DNA from: Candidatus Scalindua sp.
GTDB taxonomy: Bacteria > Planctomycetota > Brocadiia > Brocadiales > Scalinduaceae
NCBI GenBank assembly: GCA_021776915.1
Contig: JAIQZU010000081.1
Location: 1-64,000 of the forward strand
Direction of reading: 5' to 3'
Length of the DNA: 64,000 nucleotides
Position numbers and translations under genes: made by a program. The notes under the pieces were generated by a model. The model had not been told where the DNA came from and did not search any database. It worked only from the letters and a program-made list of their open reading frames with translations. Below are positions 57,538-62,800 of this stretch, one piece after another. The stretch's first letter is position 1; each line of letters begins with the position of its first letter.

Positions 57538-58368
57538 ATGCTTAAAGAGAAAATAGGATTTATTGGCGGTGGCAAAATGGGTGAAGCTCTGATCAAAGGA
57601 GTCCTCAGGGCAAAACTGAGTTCTGCCAATAAAATTATCGTCAGTGATGTGGATAAAAAACGCTGTCAAATACTTGAAGAAGAGACAGGGATAAAAACTA
57701 CTCAGGAAAACAAAAAAGCAGTCTCCGCTTCTGACGTCATAATCCTTGCTATCAAACCAAACGTAATGGGCGATATCCTTGAAGAATTAAAAAGCGATAT
57801 TACTCCAGAACATCTGGTTGTTTCAATAGCGGCAGGGATCCCACTGAGCTTTATAGAATCATTTCTAAACAAGGGCTGCCGGGCTGTCAGGGTTATGCCC
57901 AACACACCGTGCCTGGTGGGTGAGACTGCTGCAGGTTACGCCCTGGGGAAAAATGCTACACGTAATGACGGGGAACTGGTTGGTCAAATCCTTAATGCGG
58001 TAGGCCAATCTTTCTTACTGGAGGAGAAACACCTTGACGCCGTTACGGGATTGAGTGGAAGCGGGCCTGCGTTTATTTATATGGTTATTGAGGCGCTGGC
58101 GGACGGAGGGGTTAAGATGGGCCTGCCAAGAGACATATCAACAAAGCTTGCGGCGCAGACCGCATTTGGCGCTGCAAAAATGGTGTTGGAGTCGGGCATA
58201 CACATAGGTGAACTCAAAGACTTTGTCACCTCTCCTGGCGGTACAACTATAGAAGGGATTCATGCTCTTGAAAAGGGCGGTATCAGGGATGCCCTGATAA
58301 ATGCCGTTGAGACTGCAACTAAAAAATCAAAAAGACTGGGCAAGACATTTTCAAAACGCAGCAAATAA
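57538..58368 (+). CDS. proC: Pyrroline-5-carboxylate reductase
   Basis: 276 residues. ProC reduces pyrroline-5-carboxylate to proline with NAD(P)H. The N-terminal Rossmann motif is IGFIGGGKMGEALIKG, and the C-terminal signature is GLSGSGPAFIYMVIEALADGGVKMGLPR with the catalytic Ser/Thr, then LKDFVTSPGGTTIEGIHALE. Length and motifs are standard. GAGG lies six bases before the ATG. It is followed by a hairpin and then the RiPP locus; no functional link is implied. Confidence 0.95.
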   Translation: MLKEKIGFIGGGKMGEALIKGVLRAKLSSANKIIVSDVDKKRCQILEEETGIKTTQENKKAVSASDVIILAIKPNVMGDILEELKSDITPEHLVVSIAAGIPLSFIESFLNKGCRAVRVMPNTPCLVGETAAGYALGKNATRNDGELVGQILNAVGQSFLLEEKHLDAVTGLSGSGPAFIYMVIEALADGGVKMGLPRDISTKLAAQTAFGAAKMVLESGIHIGELKDFVTSPGGTTIEGIHALEKGGIRDALINAVETATKKSKRLGKTFSKRSK

Positions 58369-58433: not shown

Positions 58434-58549
58434 AAGATAGCCAACCCATCCTGCCAAAGAAATATACTCGCTTGCCTTAATAATTCTACGATAAAAAAAG
58501 CAATTTCCTGTCAGCAATTACAATTCTAGAAAAAGGAGGTGTGCAGAAG

Positions 58550-58672
58550 ATGGAAGGTAAACAGAAGACAGAAGAGAACAAAGAGAAGAAAAAAGAGAGA
58601 TACGAAAAACCTGAACTGGAAAAAAAAGGGAGCCTTAAGGATATTACTGCGAATGGAGTTTCCGACTCATGA
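58550..58672 (+). CDS. Lasso-peptide-type RiPP leader peptide with a very short core
   Basis: A 40-residue peptide behind an excellent AAAGGAGGT (58532-58540, about ten bases before the ATG). Residues 1-16 are almost only Lys, Glu, Gln and Asn. Residues 18-33 read YEKPELEKKGSLKDIT, a perfect match to the lasso leader pattern Y-x2-P-x-L-x3-G-x5-T (Tyr18, Pro21, Leu23, Gly27, Thr33) that binds the B1/PqqD-like protein. After Thr33 only ANGVSDS remains before TGA, whereas lasso cores normally have 13 or more residues with Asp or Glu at position 7-9. The pattern plus the four downstream maturation-type genes make the family call strong. Whether the core is truncated or naturally this short is open. 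Confidence 0.75.
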   Translation: MEGKQKTEENKEKKKERYEKPELEKKGSLKDITANGVSDS

Positions 58673-58712
58673 TCTCTTGTAATGCAGGAGATGAATGAGA
58701 AAGCAGATTTAT

Positions 58713-58870
58713 CCAGCAGTGTCCGGTTAGGTTTTTGCATGTACGGCTTTTTATATCCGATCTGTCGGAAGATACGTAGGGCGAGGCTTTAGCCTTGCGC
58801 TTAATGTACGAAAGCAAACCTAAAGGATTGCCCTACGTGTTACACACAAAAACCTAACCGGTCACTGCTG
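58713..58870. mobile_element. MITE with terminal inverted repeats and 8-bp target duplication
   Basis: The ends CAGCAGTGTCCGGTTAGG (from 58714) and its near-perfect inverted match (to 58870, CCTAACCGGTCACTGCTG) pair over about 30 bases. AGATTTAT is directly repeated at 58705-58712 and 58871-58878, consistent with a target-site duplication. An inner pair (GTAGGGC...GCCCTAC) is also present. There is no coding capacity. It separates the leader-peptide gene from the PqqD-like gene. Confidence 0.8.
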
Positions 58871-58896
58871 AGATTTATTGATAATACACAGATTTT

Positions 58897-59184
58897 ATGG
58901 ACATGGCAGGGAAATATCCGGCAAAAGGCAGGGACGTTCACTATAGAGAAATTGACTTGAAGAGCGTCCTTTTAGATATTGACAGCGGAGAATATTACTC
59001 CCTGAACAGGGTAGGAACATTTATCTGGTCTCTCATCAATGGAAAAAGAGATGTGAGCCACATAGTAGACGAGGTTACCGGAAAATTCGATATTTCCATG
59101 GAACAGGCAGGGCCGGATGTAAAGGGATTGATCGAAAAGCTTATCAGTGAAGGGCTGGTTGAGGTGCATGATAAACCGGAATGA
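58897..59184 (+). CDS. PqqD-like RiPP leader-recognition protein (lasso B1 type)
   Basis: 95 residues. The PqqD fold is recognisable: VHYREIDLKSVLLDIDSGEYYSLN, then RVGTFIWSLINGKRDVSHIVDEV and DVKGLIEKLISEGLVEV. In lasso systems this B1 protein binds the YxxPxL leader and presents the precursor to the B2 protease. The start at 58897 has no clear ribosome-binding site, probably because the MITE inserted just upstream. It overlaps the B2 gene by 17 bases, the usual coupling. The presence of a leader motif upstream supports the role. Confidence 0.88.
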   Translation: MDMAGKYPAKGRDVHYREIDLKSVLLDIDSGEYYSLNRVGTFIWSLINGKRDVSHIVDEVTGKFDISMEQAGPDVKGLIEKLISEGLVEVHDKPE

Positions 59185-59686
59185 TTTAAAATATCTAAAA
59201 AGACCGCAAAATTTCCTTCTGTTTGCAAAGGTATTTTCTTTACTTATAGTCCTGCCGGTTCTGGTTAAGTTATTAAAACTGCCTACTTTGCTTAGACTCC
59301 TCGAACATGGAAAAACCAAACGAAAGGGTGATAACAGGGACGGTATAGAGATGATAACCAAATTTGCAAATTTTATCATATACGACATATTTCACAGCGC
59401 AAATCCCTGCCTGCTCAGATCACTCCTGCTTTTTAAATTTTTCAGGGAGAGCGGTATGGATTTACAGATCGCATTTGGGGTCAAGGAGGGAGAGGAAGAT
59501 TTTAAGGGGCATGCCTGGCTGATTCACCGGAAAAAGCCTTTTAATGAAAAGTCCGACCCTTCAGGAGAGTTCGATGTTATCTATGTATATCCCCAACCTG
59601 GCCGAACACGGCAGGCAGACCCCTCTTTCGAGAGGACTCCAATTCTGGAATCCTCTCGAAAGAGAGGCTGTTTATACAACGAATGA
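59168..59686 (+). CDS. Lasso-peptide B2-type transglutaminase-like leader peptidase, C-terminus altered by a repeat
   Basis: About 172 residues from the ATG at 59168, which overlaps the PqqD-like gene; an ATG at 59147 is also in frame. The N-terminal half has hydrophobic helices (residues about 16-45). The catalytic part reads NPCLLRSLLLFKFFRESGM (Cys81) and GHAWLIHRKKPF (His115), ending FDVIYVYPQ where B2 proteins normally stop. The last 30 or so codons come from repeat A (59620-59668), so the original stop has been replaced by repeat-derived sequence. B2 proteins cleave the leader after the conserved Thr-x. The active residues visible are intact. Confidence 0.8.
   Translation: MINRNDLKYLKRPQNFLLFAKVFSLLIVLPVLVKLLKLPTLLRLLEHGKTKRKGDNRDGIEMITKFANFIIYDIFHSANPCLLRSLLLFKFFRESGMDLQIAFGVKEGEEDFKGHAWLIHRKKPFNEKSDPSGEFDVIYVYPQPGRTRQADPSFERTPILESSRKRGCLYNE
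59620..59668. repeat. Palindromic repeat family A inside the B2 reading frame
   Basis: CCTCTTTCGAGAGGACTCC and GGAATCCTCTCGAAAGAGAGG form the usual palindrome (loop ATTC). It is translated as the C-terminal tail of the B2 protein. Confidence 0.85.
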
Positions 59687-59745
59687 AAGCTGAATTATAA
59701 ATTTGTTTGTTTTGTTATTAGACACTTTTCTTTAACACGCCGTAG

Positions 59746-59828
59746 GGGCGTATGGCCATACGCCCACCGATGGTTCAGGCTTGCAGCCTGAACCAAAACG
59801 TTTAGGTTCAATCAACATGATTGAACCT
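59746..59828. repeat. Three consecutive hairpins
   Basis: A perfect 20-bp palindrome at 59746-59765, GGTTCAGGC/GCCTGAACC at 59772-59794 and AGGTTCAATCA/TGATTGAACCT at 59804-59828. They lie in the 245-base gap between the B2 and kinase-like genes, which holds no gene. Confidence 0.8.
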
Positions 59829-59835
59829 GCAAGAA

Positions 59836-59935
59836 GTTAGGCCGCTATCTCGACAAAAGACTATCCTTCGACTCCGCTCAGGATGACGTCACACTGAGCG
59901 GAGTCGAAGCGTTATCAACATTGAATTTCCTATGC
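59836..59935. repeat. Repeat family D (copy 3)
   Basis: TTCGACTCCGCTCA at 59867-59880 pairs perfectly with 59895-59908, with the TGACGTCA-containing loop. Its right end (TTTCCTATGCA) supplies the ATG used by the next gene. Confidence 0.85.
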
Positions 59936-60975
59936 ATGAACATACAAAAAATAAGGAAGAAAAGATAACCGCAGATTTCTCAATCCATGGAATAGGACTG
60001 AGGTTTAATACTAACAGCCAAACCATCCTCTCCTCTTTTAAAGAATTTCTTGGATGTTTCTCCGCCACAGAACCGGGCTATTCACCTGACATAACATTCA
60101 CAATATTCGATAATCGACAGAACCTTTCTCATGACTTTTCCATCCCTGAGGGGCTGAGCCTGTTATGCGCTCCGCAGGAATTTGCCGGGGTACCCATGGG
60201 CAATACAGGACTGGAAAAACTGGATTTTTATGGAACCGGCGGTGAGTCAACTTATTACCTGGACATGGGGAATCCGGGACTCATATCTTTCGATTTAACC
60301 GGATGCAGAGTGGAGGGCTATATACAAAACAGCGATTTACTATATTCCACCAGGCTTCCCGGCGCTATTCTCATGGTTGTTCTTTCGGAAATAATAAAGA
60401 CCCTGGGATATTTCCAGCTCCATTGTTCAGCGGTAGACAGGAACGGGAAAGGGGTTTTGTTACCCGGATTCTCAGGTTCCGGCAAGACTACCACTTGCAT
60501 TGCCCTTATCAGAAATGGATACAGGTCTCTCGGAGATGACTGCCCCATGCTGCGATACAACATGAAGGGAAGTCTCGAACTGCTCGCCTTTCCGGAACGT
60601 GTAAATGTAACAGAAAAGACAATAAATTTCTTCCCGGAATTAAAAAACAGTAATCTTTTAAAGGACAATGGCAATGGAAGAAAGTGGAGTTTTAACACGG
60701 AGGATGTCTATCCGGGGTCTACAAAGATGTCCACAATTCCGAAAGTTGTCCTTTTCCCGGAGGTTCATTCAGGGCAAAAGAGCCGCCTGGAAAGTCTTTC
60801 CGGAAACGAGGCATTCAAATTACTGCTCCCCCACGGACTTATGGTATTAGATAAAGAGACGGCAAGGAAACACTTCGATATACTGGTGGATTTGATCGAG
60901 TCAGTCGAATGCTACCGGCTTTATATAGGTTCTGACTTCAGGGAACTTGACAAACTTATAGATTCAATATTATGA
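59932..60975 (+). CDS. HPr kinase-like P-loop protein of lasso-type RiPP clusters
   Basis: 347 residues. The C-terminal half is an HPr kinase/phosphorylase-type P-loop domain: LHCSAVDRNGKGVLLPGFSG, Walker A GFSGSGKTT (179-187) and RSLGDDCPML (about 198-207). The N-terminal 150 residues are a beta-rich region seen in the same protein group. Such kinases occur in many lasso clusters, and some phosphorylate the C-terminal residue of the precursor; a Ser is the last residue of the leader peptide here. The ATG is at the edge of repeat D and no good ribosome-binding site is seen. It overlaps the next gene by four bases. Confidence 0.8.
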   Translation: MHEHTKNKEEKITADFSIHGIGLRFNTNSQTILSSFKEFLGCFSATEPGYSPDITFTIFDNRQNLSHDFSIPEGLSLLCAPQEFAGVPMGNTGLEKLDFYGTGGESTYYLDMGNPGLISFDLTGCRVEGYIQNSDLLYSTRLPGAILMVVLSEIIKTLGYFQLHCSAVDRNGKGVLLPGFSGSGKTTTCIALIRNGYRSLGDDCPMLRYNMKGSLELLAFPERVNVTEKTINFFPELKNSNLLKDNGNGRKWSFNTEDVYPGSTKMSTIPKVVLFPEVHSGQKSRLESLSGNEAFKLLLPHGLMVLDKETARKHFDILVDLIESVECYRLYIGSDFRELDKLIDSIL

Positions 60976-62084
60976 TGTGGCCAGCGAAAGAGCAGCAGTT
61001 TATCCTCTCCTTTTTGAAGTTTTCTTTTGGATACGAAGACTCCCGAAACATTGTAAACCTTGCCAATGAGGATTTAGACTGGAAAAGAGTTGCAGCCATG
61101 GCGGGATATCACGGCATATCATCCATCCTCCATGATTGCCTGCAAAAGAATAGAGAAATAAAAATTCCCCACTCTGTAAAGAAGGCGCTGGAAAAGGAGT
61201 ATTTTGGAAATATAGCGGCCGGCCTTTTGTTTGAAAAAGCCCTGAAAGAGATTATTCAACATTTCGAGCACAACGGGCTTACTTTTGCCGTTCATAAAGG
61301 GTTAGGCCTCTCTACCCTTCTTTATCCCGAACCACAGCTCAGATCAAGCGGTACAGATCTGGATATTTTTATTAAAAAGGATGATTATTTACAGGTAAAG
61401 AACCTGTTGATGGAAATCGGGTGCAGACTGCAGAATATCCATTATGAATACCACGAGATGTCCTACATTGGAGAAGTAAAGTACGTCAAACAGGAGGGCA
61501 GTATAAAAGTAATCATAGATCTGCATACAGACTTTAATCCCAATCACTGGGGAAAGGTTTCAAGGTTTGATCCGGAAGGTTTTTGGGATTCTCTGTTGAA
61601 GGTAAAATATAATGACTTCTTCATCCCCTGCCTGCCTGTCGAGGCCAACCTGATCTTTCTTTCTATTCATTGCGCGGCAAATCATATATTCGACAGATTA
61701 ATAAACTTCTGTGATTTAGATCTTCTCATAAGAAAATATGGAGATAAAACTGACTGGGGAAAGCTTGCGGACTTTGCGAGAGAAAATAAATCCAGGAAAG
61801 TTTTTTATTTTCCGCTCAACTTCTGCCAAAAGCTGCTGGGAACTCCTGTTCCGCAGGAGTTTTTAGAGGCGATCCGGCCGGGGCCATTATCAATCTCCCT
61901 TGTACCTCGAAAACTGCTTTTGCTGAGGGACGGCAAACCGCCTAAGTGGCTGGAGAGGTACATGCATTTTGTCCTGCTCGATAACCCCCTTGACTTTTTA
62001 AGGAGTGTCAGGATATTTTCAAAGCGTATCCTTGAGGAGTGTTTTATAAAGAGAAAAACCGGTTCCGCTATTTCAGAAGGTTAG
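60972..62084 (+). CDS. Nucleotidyltransferase-family protein of RiPP cluster
   Basis: 370 residues. It resembles the uncharacterised nucleotidyltransferase family often found beside PqqD, B2 and HPr-kinase-like genes: FAVHKGLGLSTLLYPEPQLR, then SSGTDLDIFIKKDDYLQV with the metal-binding pair Asp129 and Asp131, and later FLSIHCAANHIFDRLINFCDL. It probably transfers a nucleotide or uses one to modify the peptide or kinase, but no activity is established. The start ATG overlaps the stop of the kinase gene. It is the last gene of the locus. Confidence 0.75.
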   Translation: MMWPAKEQQFILSFLKFSFGYEDSRNIVNLANEDLDWKRVAAMAGYHGISSILHDCLQKNREIKIPHSVKKALEKEYFGNIAAGLLFEKALKEIIQHFEHNGLTFAVHKGLGLSTLLYPEPQLRSSGTDLDIFIKKDDYLQVKNLLMEIGCRLQNIHYEYHEMSYIGEVKYVKQEGSIKVIIDLHTDFNPNHWGKVSRFDPEGFWDSLLKVKYNDFFIPCLPVEANLIFLSIHCAANHIFDRLINFCDLDLLIRKYGDKTDWGKLADFARENKSRKVFYFPLNFCQKLLGTPVPQEFLEAIRPGPLSISLVPRKLLLLRDGKPPKWLERYMHFVLLDNPLDFLRSVRIFSKRILEECFIKRKTGSAISEG

Positions 62085-62141: not shown

Positions 62142-62456
62142 CTATTTATAGACTGGTTCCAGTGTTCCGTTATATGGTTTTACTTTAATCTGTTTAGCGC
62201 GTTCCTCGGCTTGCGCTGCATCATATTGGAACTGCAATCCCATCCATCCGTCAGGTGTACCCCCAAACGCTTTAGACAGACGAATAGCCATGTTCCACGA
62301 CAGATCAGTCTTTTTATTAACCAACATGCTTAATGCTTGCCGGGTTACGCCTAGAATTTTGGCCCCGTCCGTAATGCTTAAATTATAGGGTTCCAAACAA
62401 TCTACCCGCACCCCTAATCCTGGATGTGGCGGGTTTTTCATGCGTGTTCTCTTCAT
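62142..62456 (-). CDS. higA: HigA-family XRE antitoxin
   Basis: 104 residues. The HigA pattern is clear: RMKNPPHPGLGVRVDCLEPY near the N-terminus and the HTH LSITDGAKILGVTRQALSMLVNKK, followed by MAIRLSKAFGGTPDGWMGLQ. HigA binds and silences HigB and represses the operon. It lies 14 bases downstream of the higB gene, the toxin-first order typical of higBA. The gene is intact. Confidence 0.92.
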   Translation of the reverse strand: MKRTRMKNPPHPGLGVRVDCLEPYNLSITDGAKILGVTRQALSMLVNKKTDLSWNMAIRLSKAFGGTPDGWMGLQFQYDAAQAEERAKQIKVKPYNGTLEPVYK

Positions 62457-62470
62457 GGTTGTTTCCTTTC

Positions 62471-62800
62471 CTAATGATAATCTTCAAAATTCACATCAAA
62501 AGCATTACCATTTTCAAACTGAAAGGCAATGCGCCAGTTCGCCCGAACGGTGACACTCCATGTCCCTCTTCGATCACCTTTTAATTCGTGCAAATTGTAC
62601 GAATGAATTTTCATTGTCTCAATTAATTTTGCTGAATTTAAACGTGCTAAAATTAAACTGATCCGTTCCAGCATGTTGCGGGGTAATCGTTGAGGATTAT
62701 CGTCCTCAAAGAATCGCTTCAATCCTCTGTGTTTAAAACTTTTGATGATTTTTTCTGAGGCATTGCAACTGTATGCATTTATATTCTCCCCCCCCCCCAA
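62471..62800 (-). CDS. higB: HigB-family toxin (RelE superfamily) with poly-G start region
   Basis: The conserved part, IIKSFKHRGLKRFFEDDNP to the end WRIAFQFENGNAFDVNFEDYH, is a complete HigB mRNA interferase of about 93 residues. The residue expected to be the initiator Met is ATC, and the only in-frame start is a TTG whose G begins a run of 11 G (62788-62798 on the plus strand as C). Starting there adds about 16 codons. Slippage in the tract would put the toxin in or out of frame. It may be unexpressed, or phase-variable; a non-canonical start is a third possibility. Confidence 0.75.
   Translation of the reverse strand: MGGGENINAYSCNASEKIIKSFKHRGLKRFFEDDNPQRLPRNMLERISLILARLNSAKLIETMKIHSYNLHELKGDRRGTWSVTVRANWRIAFQFENGNAFDVNFEDYH

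Follow-up and report, generated by a model that had tools for sequence, protein, structure and literature searches.

A lasso-like gene cassette without a cyclase and with a seven-residue precursor tail in Candidatus Scalindua sp.

Gene content of the cassette

We analysed a stretch of 64,000 nucleotides (the window) from contig JAIQZU010000081.1 of the anammox planctomycete Candidatus Scalindua sp. (assembly GCA_021776915.1). Near its end, a compact cassette resembling the gene clusters of lasso peptides, a class of ribosomally synthesised and post-translationally modified peptides (RiPPs), encodes in this order a short precursor peptide, a PqqD-like protein of the discrete RiPP recognition element (RRE) type, a B2-type leader peptidase, an HprK-like kinase and a nucleotidyltransferase-like enzyme of family PF14907. 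The original prediction, made from the sequence, had named the same five genes in the same order, and open reading frames (ORFs) and profile matches confirmed all of them. The features of the cassette are as follows.

58550-62084, plus strand: whole cassette, precursor to PqqD/RRE to B2 to HprK-like kinase to PF14907 transferase
58533-58541, plus strand: Shine-Dalgarno sequence AAGGAGGTG of the precursor, a strong ribosome-binding site
58550-58672, plus strand: precursor peptide of 40 residues, MEGKQKTEENKEKKKERYEKPELEKKGSLKDIT followed by ANGVSDS (ORF; NF033521 above cut-off)
58601-58648, plus strand: leader recognition motif YEKPELEKKGSLKDIT, Tyr to Thr, with the Tyr-Thr spacing of the Nitrospira relatives
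58649-58669, plus strand: tail ANGVSDS, predicted to give ANGVSDS or NGVSDS as product
58661-58663, plus strand: codon of the predicted phosphosite Ser38 (Thr+5), suggested by Ser conservation at Thr+4/+5
58670-58672, plus strand: precursor stop codon TGA
58714-58870: repeat resembling a miniature inverted-repeat transposable element (MITE), 157 bp with 30-bp inverted ends, between precursor and PqqD and outside the machinery
58897-59184, plus strand: PqqD-like discrete RRE, B1-type (PF05402, 7e-19)
59147-59686, plus strand: B2-type leader peptidase, transglutaminase-like (NF033537, 43.4 bits, cut-off 33)
59620-59667: near-perfect palindrome encoding much of the C-terminal tail of B2
59866-59909: near-perfect palindrome immediately ahead of the kinase gene
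59932-60975, plus strand: HprK-like peptide kinase (PF07475, 9.5e-6; HprK_rel_A, 1e-16; both under the curated cut-offs)
60972-62084, plus strand: PF14907 nucleotidyltransferase-like enzyme (PF14907, 9e-45; DxD retained)

The leader motif Y-x2-P-x-L-x3-G-x5-T appears a single time when the window is translated in all six frames, in the precursor itself, and not at all across 60 shuffles of 3-base blocks, and the precursor scores 20.9 bits against the NCBIfam model NF033521 (lasso_leader_L3; cut-off 19). As had been predicted, only seven residues follow the leader Thr. A sequencing error at the stop codon was rejected as the reason for this shortness, because the other two frames past the leader terminate after 10 and 15 residues, ahead of the repeat, so that a single insertion or deletion would not yield an obvious lasso core. 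When the family of 20-residue leaders was searched for in the same genome, no match was obtained, and the search is uninformative since its controls were silent as well.

The PqqD, B2 and PF14907 proteins pass their curated cut-offs. The closest solved structure to PqqD is TbiB1 (1.2e-6). In B2, Cys88 and His122 are conserved and the domain is complete up to position 130 of the 132 in its model; a profile search by sequence found no solved relative, and the AlphaFold model (predicted local distance difference test score, pLDDT, 74.7) gave no match in the PDB at E 0.001, the weaker matches including transglutaminase-like enzymes without being decisive. The kinase retains the Walker A motif GFSGSGKTT and Asp202-Asp203.

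The claim that the cassette lacks both a cyclase and an exporter also held. Particularly, no asparagine-synthetase-like macrolactam cyclase (PF00733) was found in the cassette or across 55-74 kb of the contig, and the strong Asn_synthase matches of this genome are on other contigs (C49, C83 and C9), without B2. The locus shares with lasso clusters the YxxPxL leader with its Thr, PqqD/B1 and B2. A lasso core, however, is long enough for a ring of 7-9 residues plus a tail and has Asp or Glu at position 7-9, and here 6-7 residues remain past the leader. With both the cyclase and the ring acid absent, the window locus is not a lasso cluster. Its B2 is the only one in the whole genome, and among 12 other genomes of the genus a B2 occurs in just one, where it falls with the lasso proteins. 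A second HprK-like/PF14907 pair of the same genome lies near the end of contig C33 (L055:7096-9257), in a fetched stretch without PqqD or B2.

Cyclase-less cassettes and their precursors in other genomes

Relatives were collected by B2-family searches of the order, the phylum and Nitrospirota and by a scan of named genomes. About 80 loci (L numbers) were fetched and annotated with profiles whose seeds came from both the window and relatives, and the presence or absence of a cyclase was judged within 6.5 kb of B2. A lasso cyclase was found in 20 loci, and 37 loci have PqqD, HprK and PF14907 and no cyclase. Three of these 37 (L039, L138 and L143) fall with lasso proteins in trees, the cyclase of L039 being farther away, which leaves 34 loci on the cyclase-less side, the window included, from anammox planctomycetes, Nitrospira, other Nitrospirota and bacterium HR37. 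Beside Nitrospira cassettes, ORFs of 476 aa were flagged by our first cyclase profile; they are PurF, with the Pfam GATase and phosphoribosyltransferase domains, and were not counted as cyclases. A search of plasmids returned just two remote kinase matches.

These 34 loci support the proposal of the original prediction that the window represents a different class using the lasso leader machinery, and not an isolated truncated lasso cluster. The check suggested there, a search for cyclase-less PqqD-B2-HprK-nucleotidyltransferase cassettes with repeated short cores, gave tails of 7-14 residues recurring across several lineages. As a trait of the whole class, a short core stood only in part, as some cyclase-less tails reach 39 residues.

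The precursors differ by lineage. In the anammox cassettes and one Thermodesulfovibrionia genome, the gene order is precursor-HprK-(GNAT)-rSAM-PqqD-B2-PF14907, where rSAM denotes a radical S-adenosylmethionine (radical-SAM) enzyme, and the precursors carry EPKLTKHGDATKIT and then tails of 7-12 residues, for example AGFFGSFTP, GNGLFGTFTP or GSFFGTF. Radical-SAM cassettes with such an FFxxF-like core and without a cyclase were seen in anammox and some Nitrospirota genomes, at L043:4810-9882 and at L044, L045, L046, L048, L049, L050, L051, L066, L101 and L154; their radical-SAM enzyme may crosslink aromatic residues. Nitrospira precursors, often several per locus, read YVKPALVKHELLRDVT followed by AIQLSRVLDRTPV, or YVQPAVTKHELLRDIT followed by AKRSGHG and further residues. 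At the Nitrospira loci L107, L109, L110, L116, L127-L131 and L164, several of which adjoin purF, one or more precursors have the leader KHELLRD[IV]T and tails beginning AIQLSR, xRSG or GQSG. In Nitrospiraceae SURF genomes and bacterium HR37, EPELTKHEEPLDTVT is followed by AGTIYDDLV and similar tails. Several short lasso-leader precursors were also seen on each of two planctomycete contigs (L153:1808-2518 and L140:3449-5621), and L153, a contig of 5.3 kb with PqqD, B2 and HprK and no cyclase, has precursors of 34 residues such as YARPRVQRREKLAKVT followed by EQQAPITGMPVE.

To compare the two groups, we used 47 cyclase-less and 15 lasso precursors, which were obtained alike with the leader motif, a motif that fixes none of the compared positions; as many of the sequences counted come from related species, the counts do not represent independent events. 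The residue before the leader Thr is Ile, Val or Met in all 47 cyclase-less precursors, whereas it is Leu in 13 of the 15 lasso precursors, and the residue after it is usually Ala in the cyclase-less group. An acid at core position 7-9 is present in 9/47 cyclase-less and 15/15 lasso precursors, and cores of 12 residues or fewer in 23/47 and 0/15, respectively. The window precursor follows the cyclase-less pattern throughout, with Ile before Thr, Ala after it, a short core and no ring acid. In addition, of 45 Nitrospirota precursors of the PurF-adjacent type, 41 have a Ser at Thr+4/+5, against 7.8 expected from composition, and the window precursor also has it; the rule fails in the SURF and HR37 group. 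The original prediction had proposed a modified peptide ending in Ser. A Ser is indeed conserved in the nearest relatives, those of Nitrospirota, but it is the internal one at Thr+4/+5 (the Ser of ANGVS), and a C-terminal Ser occurs in 3 of the 45.

Placement of the enzymes and interpretation of the locus

Compared with cyclase-less kinases, the window kinase reaches up to 201 bits, and with lasso kinases 54.7 bits at most, and 38 of 39 cyclase-less kinases outscore the best lasso kinase. The B2 scores separate in the same direction (85.5 bits for cyclase-less and 44.3 bits for lasso). Matches to the window kinase at 1e-32 or better were found in 56 of 396 Nitrospirota genomes, and none of them is the kinase of a fetched lasso locus; in the own phylum (392 genomes), there was no match even at 1e-25 except the window itself. 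In the HprK tree, cyclase-less and lasso proteins split with 98 support in the Shimodaira-Hasegawa-like approximate likelihood ratio test (SH-aLRT), and over the trees the groups split at 98-100, with the window on the cyclase-less side. The PF14907 tree, in which two long branches come together, gives no placement for the window.

What is observed, then, is the anatomy of the cassette, its retained catalytic residues, the absence of a cyclase and the recurrence of such cassettes with distinctive precursors elsewhere. From these sequence comparisons, we consider it probable that the locus is a cyclase-less relative of lasso clusters which makes a very short, linear, phosphorylated RiPP. Judging from homology, the PqqD-like RRE would bind the YxxPxL leader, and the HprK-like kinase would phosphorylate a Ser just past it, most likely that at Thr+5 in view of its conservation, with the C-terminal Ser as an alternative. 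B2 would cleave beside the leader Thr, and ANGVSDS or NGVSDS would be released; the PF14907 enzyme may attach a sugar or a nucleotide to the phosphate, as its pseudomycoidin homologue suggests. The likeliest product is thus ANGVSDS or NGVSDS with a phosphate on the Thr+5 Ser, where phosphorylation, the cleavage site, the action of the transferase and export are steps that we infer. On a wider scale, the evidence is about evenly balanced on whether B2/HprK/PF14907 cassettes without a cyclase constitute a separate RiPP family that is common among Nitrospira and anammox bacteria and would yield linear, phosphorylated products, in many cases of about 6-14 residues. In one branch of such a family a radical-SAM enzyme would also modify the FFxxF-like core, and the window would encode one of the two shortest products found (6-7 residues).

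Several points weigh against this interpretation of the window. No exporter lies within the cassette (58.5-62.1 kb); the closest gene resembling a transporter encodes a polysaccharide flippase and lies at 64.4 kb. The PF14907 and PqqD scores separate the cyclase-less and lasso groups poorly, and approximately unbiased (AU) tests, both single-gene and concatenated, are compatible with a basal position of the window on the lasso side (p 0.28-0.50). Since the window is also a long branch in the trees, we limit our claim to the apparent likeness of its enzymes to the cyclase-less group, descent not being proven, and there is no close relative for a selection test. Finally, the window copy could be in decay, given that a mobile repeat parts the precursor from PqqD and repeats flank B2. 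The 157-bp repeat has four near-full copies in the genome (91-100% identity, that of the window included) and several partial ones, and its sequence forms a strong hairpin (z -8.9); the B2 tail beyond about residue 150 is derived from repeat DNA, which also occupies part of the gap between B2 and HprK.

These points bear on the rival explanations, the strongest of which is still unlikely, namely that the window holds a decayed lasso cluster in which mobile repeats were involved, the precursor was truncated and the cyclase disappeared from between B2 and HprK, its place in Nitrospirota lasso clusters. The order precursor-PqqD-B2-gap-HprK-PF14907 resembles the lasso order PqqD-B2-cyclase-precursor-HprK-PF14907, repeats lie at both junctions, the AU tests accept a lasso stem, and the window leader, unlike most other cyclase-less precursors, exceeds the cut-off of the lasso leader model. 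However, the kinase and B2 are far closer to their cyclase-less relatives, Ile before and Ala after Thr are the cyclase-less pattern, the four enzymes are still intact, and cyclase-less cassettes are common. Less probable again is that the window cassette belongs to the cyclase-less group but has degenerated and lost its function through the insertion of repeats. The hairpin-forming repeat between precursor and PqqD and the repeat-encoded end of B2 would agree with such damage, but none of the five frames is interrupted, the B2 domain is nearly complete and the catalytic residues are retained.

The last explanation concerns the neighbourhood of the cassette, which contains the following features.

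57538-58368: proC-like gene upstream of the precursor (from its own sequence)
62142-62800, minus strand: HigB-like toxin and probable antitoxin, directly downstream of the cassette
contig 64.4-73.6 kb (L038:9439-18561), past the window end: polysaccharide locus with flippase, sulfotransferase, glycosyltransferases and deacetylase

The peptide phosphate might be a handle for this polysaccharide machinery, the peptide serving as a cell-surface carrier or tag with no free product, which we regard as improbable to a similar degree. The flippase, sulfotransferase, glycosyltransferases and deacetylase are at contig 64.4-73.5 kb, capsule loci often house loci of linear polyphosphorylated peptides (LPPs) and of paeninodin, and hexoses are added to phosphorylated Ser by PsmN; on the other hand, the toxin-antitoxin pair and two unrelated genes intervene, and several Nitrospira cassettes adjoin purF and not a capsule locus.

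Comparison with known systems

Compared with paeninodin and pseudomycoidin, the window cassette has the same PqqD (B1), B2, HprK-like kinase and nucleotidyltransferase homologue, but those systems also encode an asparagine-synthetase-like cyclase, their core includes a ring acid, and their kinase targets the C-terminal Ser (PMC9266682). For pseudomycoidin, this kinase is PsmK, and hexoses are added by PsmN (PMC9266682). The anammox radical-SAM cassettes (L043-L051 and L066) share the four enzymes, tails of 7-12 residues and the absence of a cyclase with the window, which has neither their radical-SAM enzyme nor their conserved FFxxF-like core. The PqqD-like and HprK-like components of SynChlorMet (ScmC/ScmD) and HPr-rel-A in NCBIfam gave weak matches, all far under the curated cut-offs.

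A literature search of incomplete coverage returned no paper that describes B2 cassettes without a cyclase from these phyla. The RRE-Finder model for discrete lasso RREs matched almost 8,000 proteins, of which about 4,000 co-occur with a leader peptidase and a cyclase; the remainder was treated as false positives, with the suggestion that some come from uncharacterised RiPP classes (PMC7470986). The cyclase-less cassettes are plausibly a concrete candidate for part of this remainder of roughly 4,000 lasso-type RREs, and they offer a testable phosphosite. With them, linear relatives of lasso peptides that are modified by a kinase would also reach beyond Bacillota to anammox bacteria and Nitrospira, key organisms of the nitrogen cycle.

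LPPs have been reported from Bacillota only (Popov et al. 2026, PMC13381572). The LPP route uses the RRE to present the leader and LppK to attach phosphates to Ser3 of a linear core starting with AQSNWK, and the leader is cut after Thr by an SpI-like peptidase, while deletion of LppN had no visible effect in a heterologous host (PMC13381572). With these systems, the window shares a discrete RRE, an HprK-like kinase, an NTP transferase, the lack of a macrolactam cyclase, a YxxP leader ending in Thr with a Tyr-Thr spacing of 15 (as in Nitrospira leaders), a Ser shortly past Thr and polysaccharide genes nearby. In contrast, LPP clusters have an SpI-like signal peptidase, in place of which the window cassette has B2 and no further peptidase, an MsbA-like exporter, which it lacks, and long cores (45 residues in the studied one), against a tail of 7. 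With neither SpI nor an exporter, the window locus is not an LPP cluster in the published sense; by analogy, we suggest that its cassette would work like one, with the lasso B2 peptidase in place of the signal peptidase.

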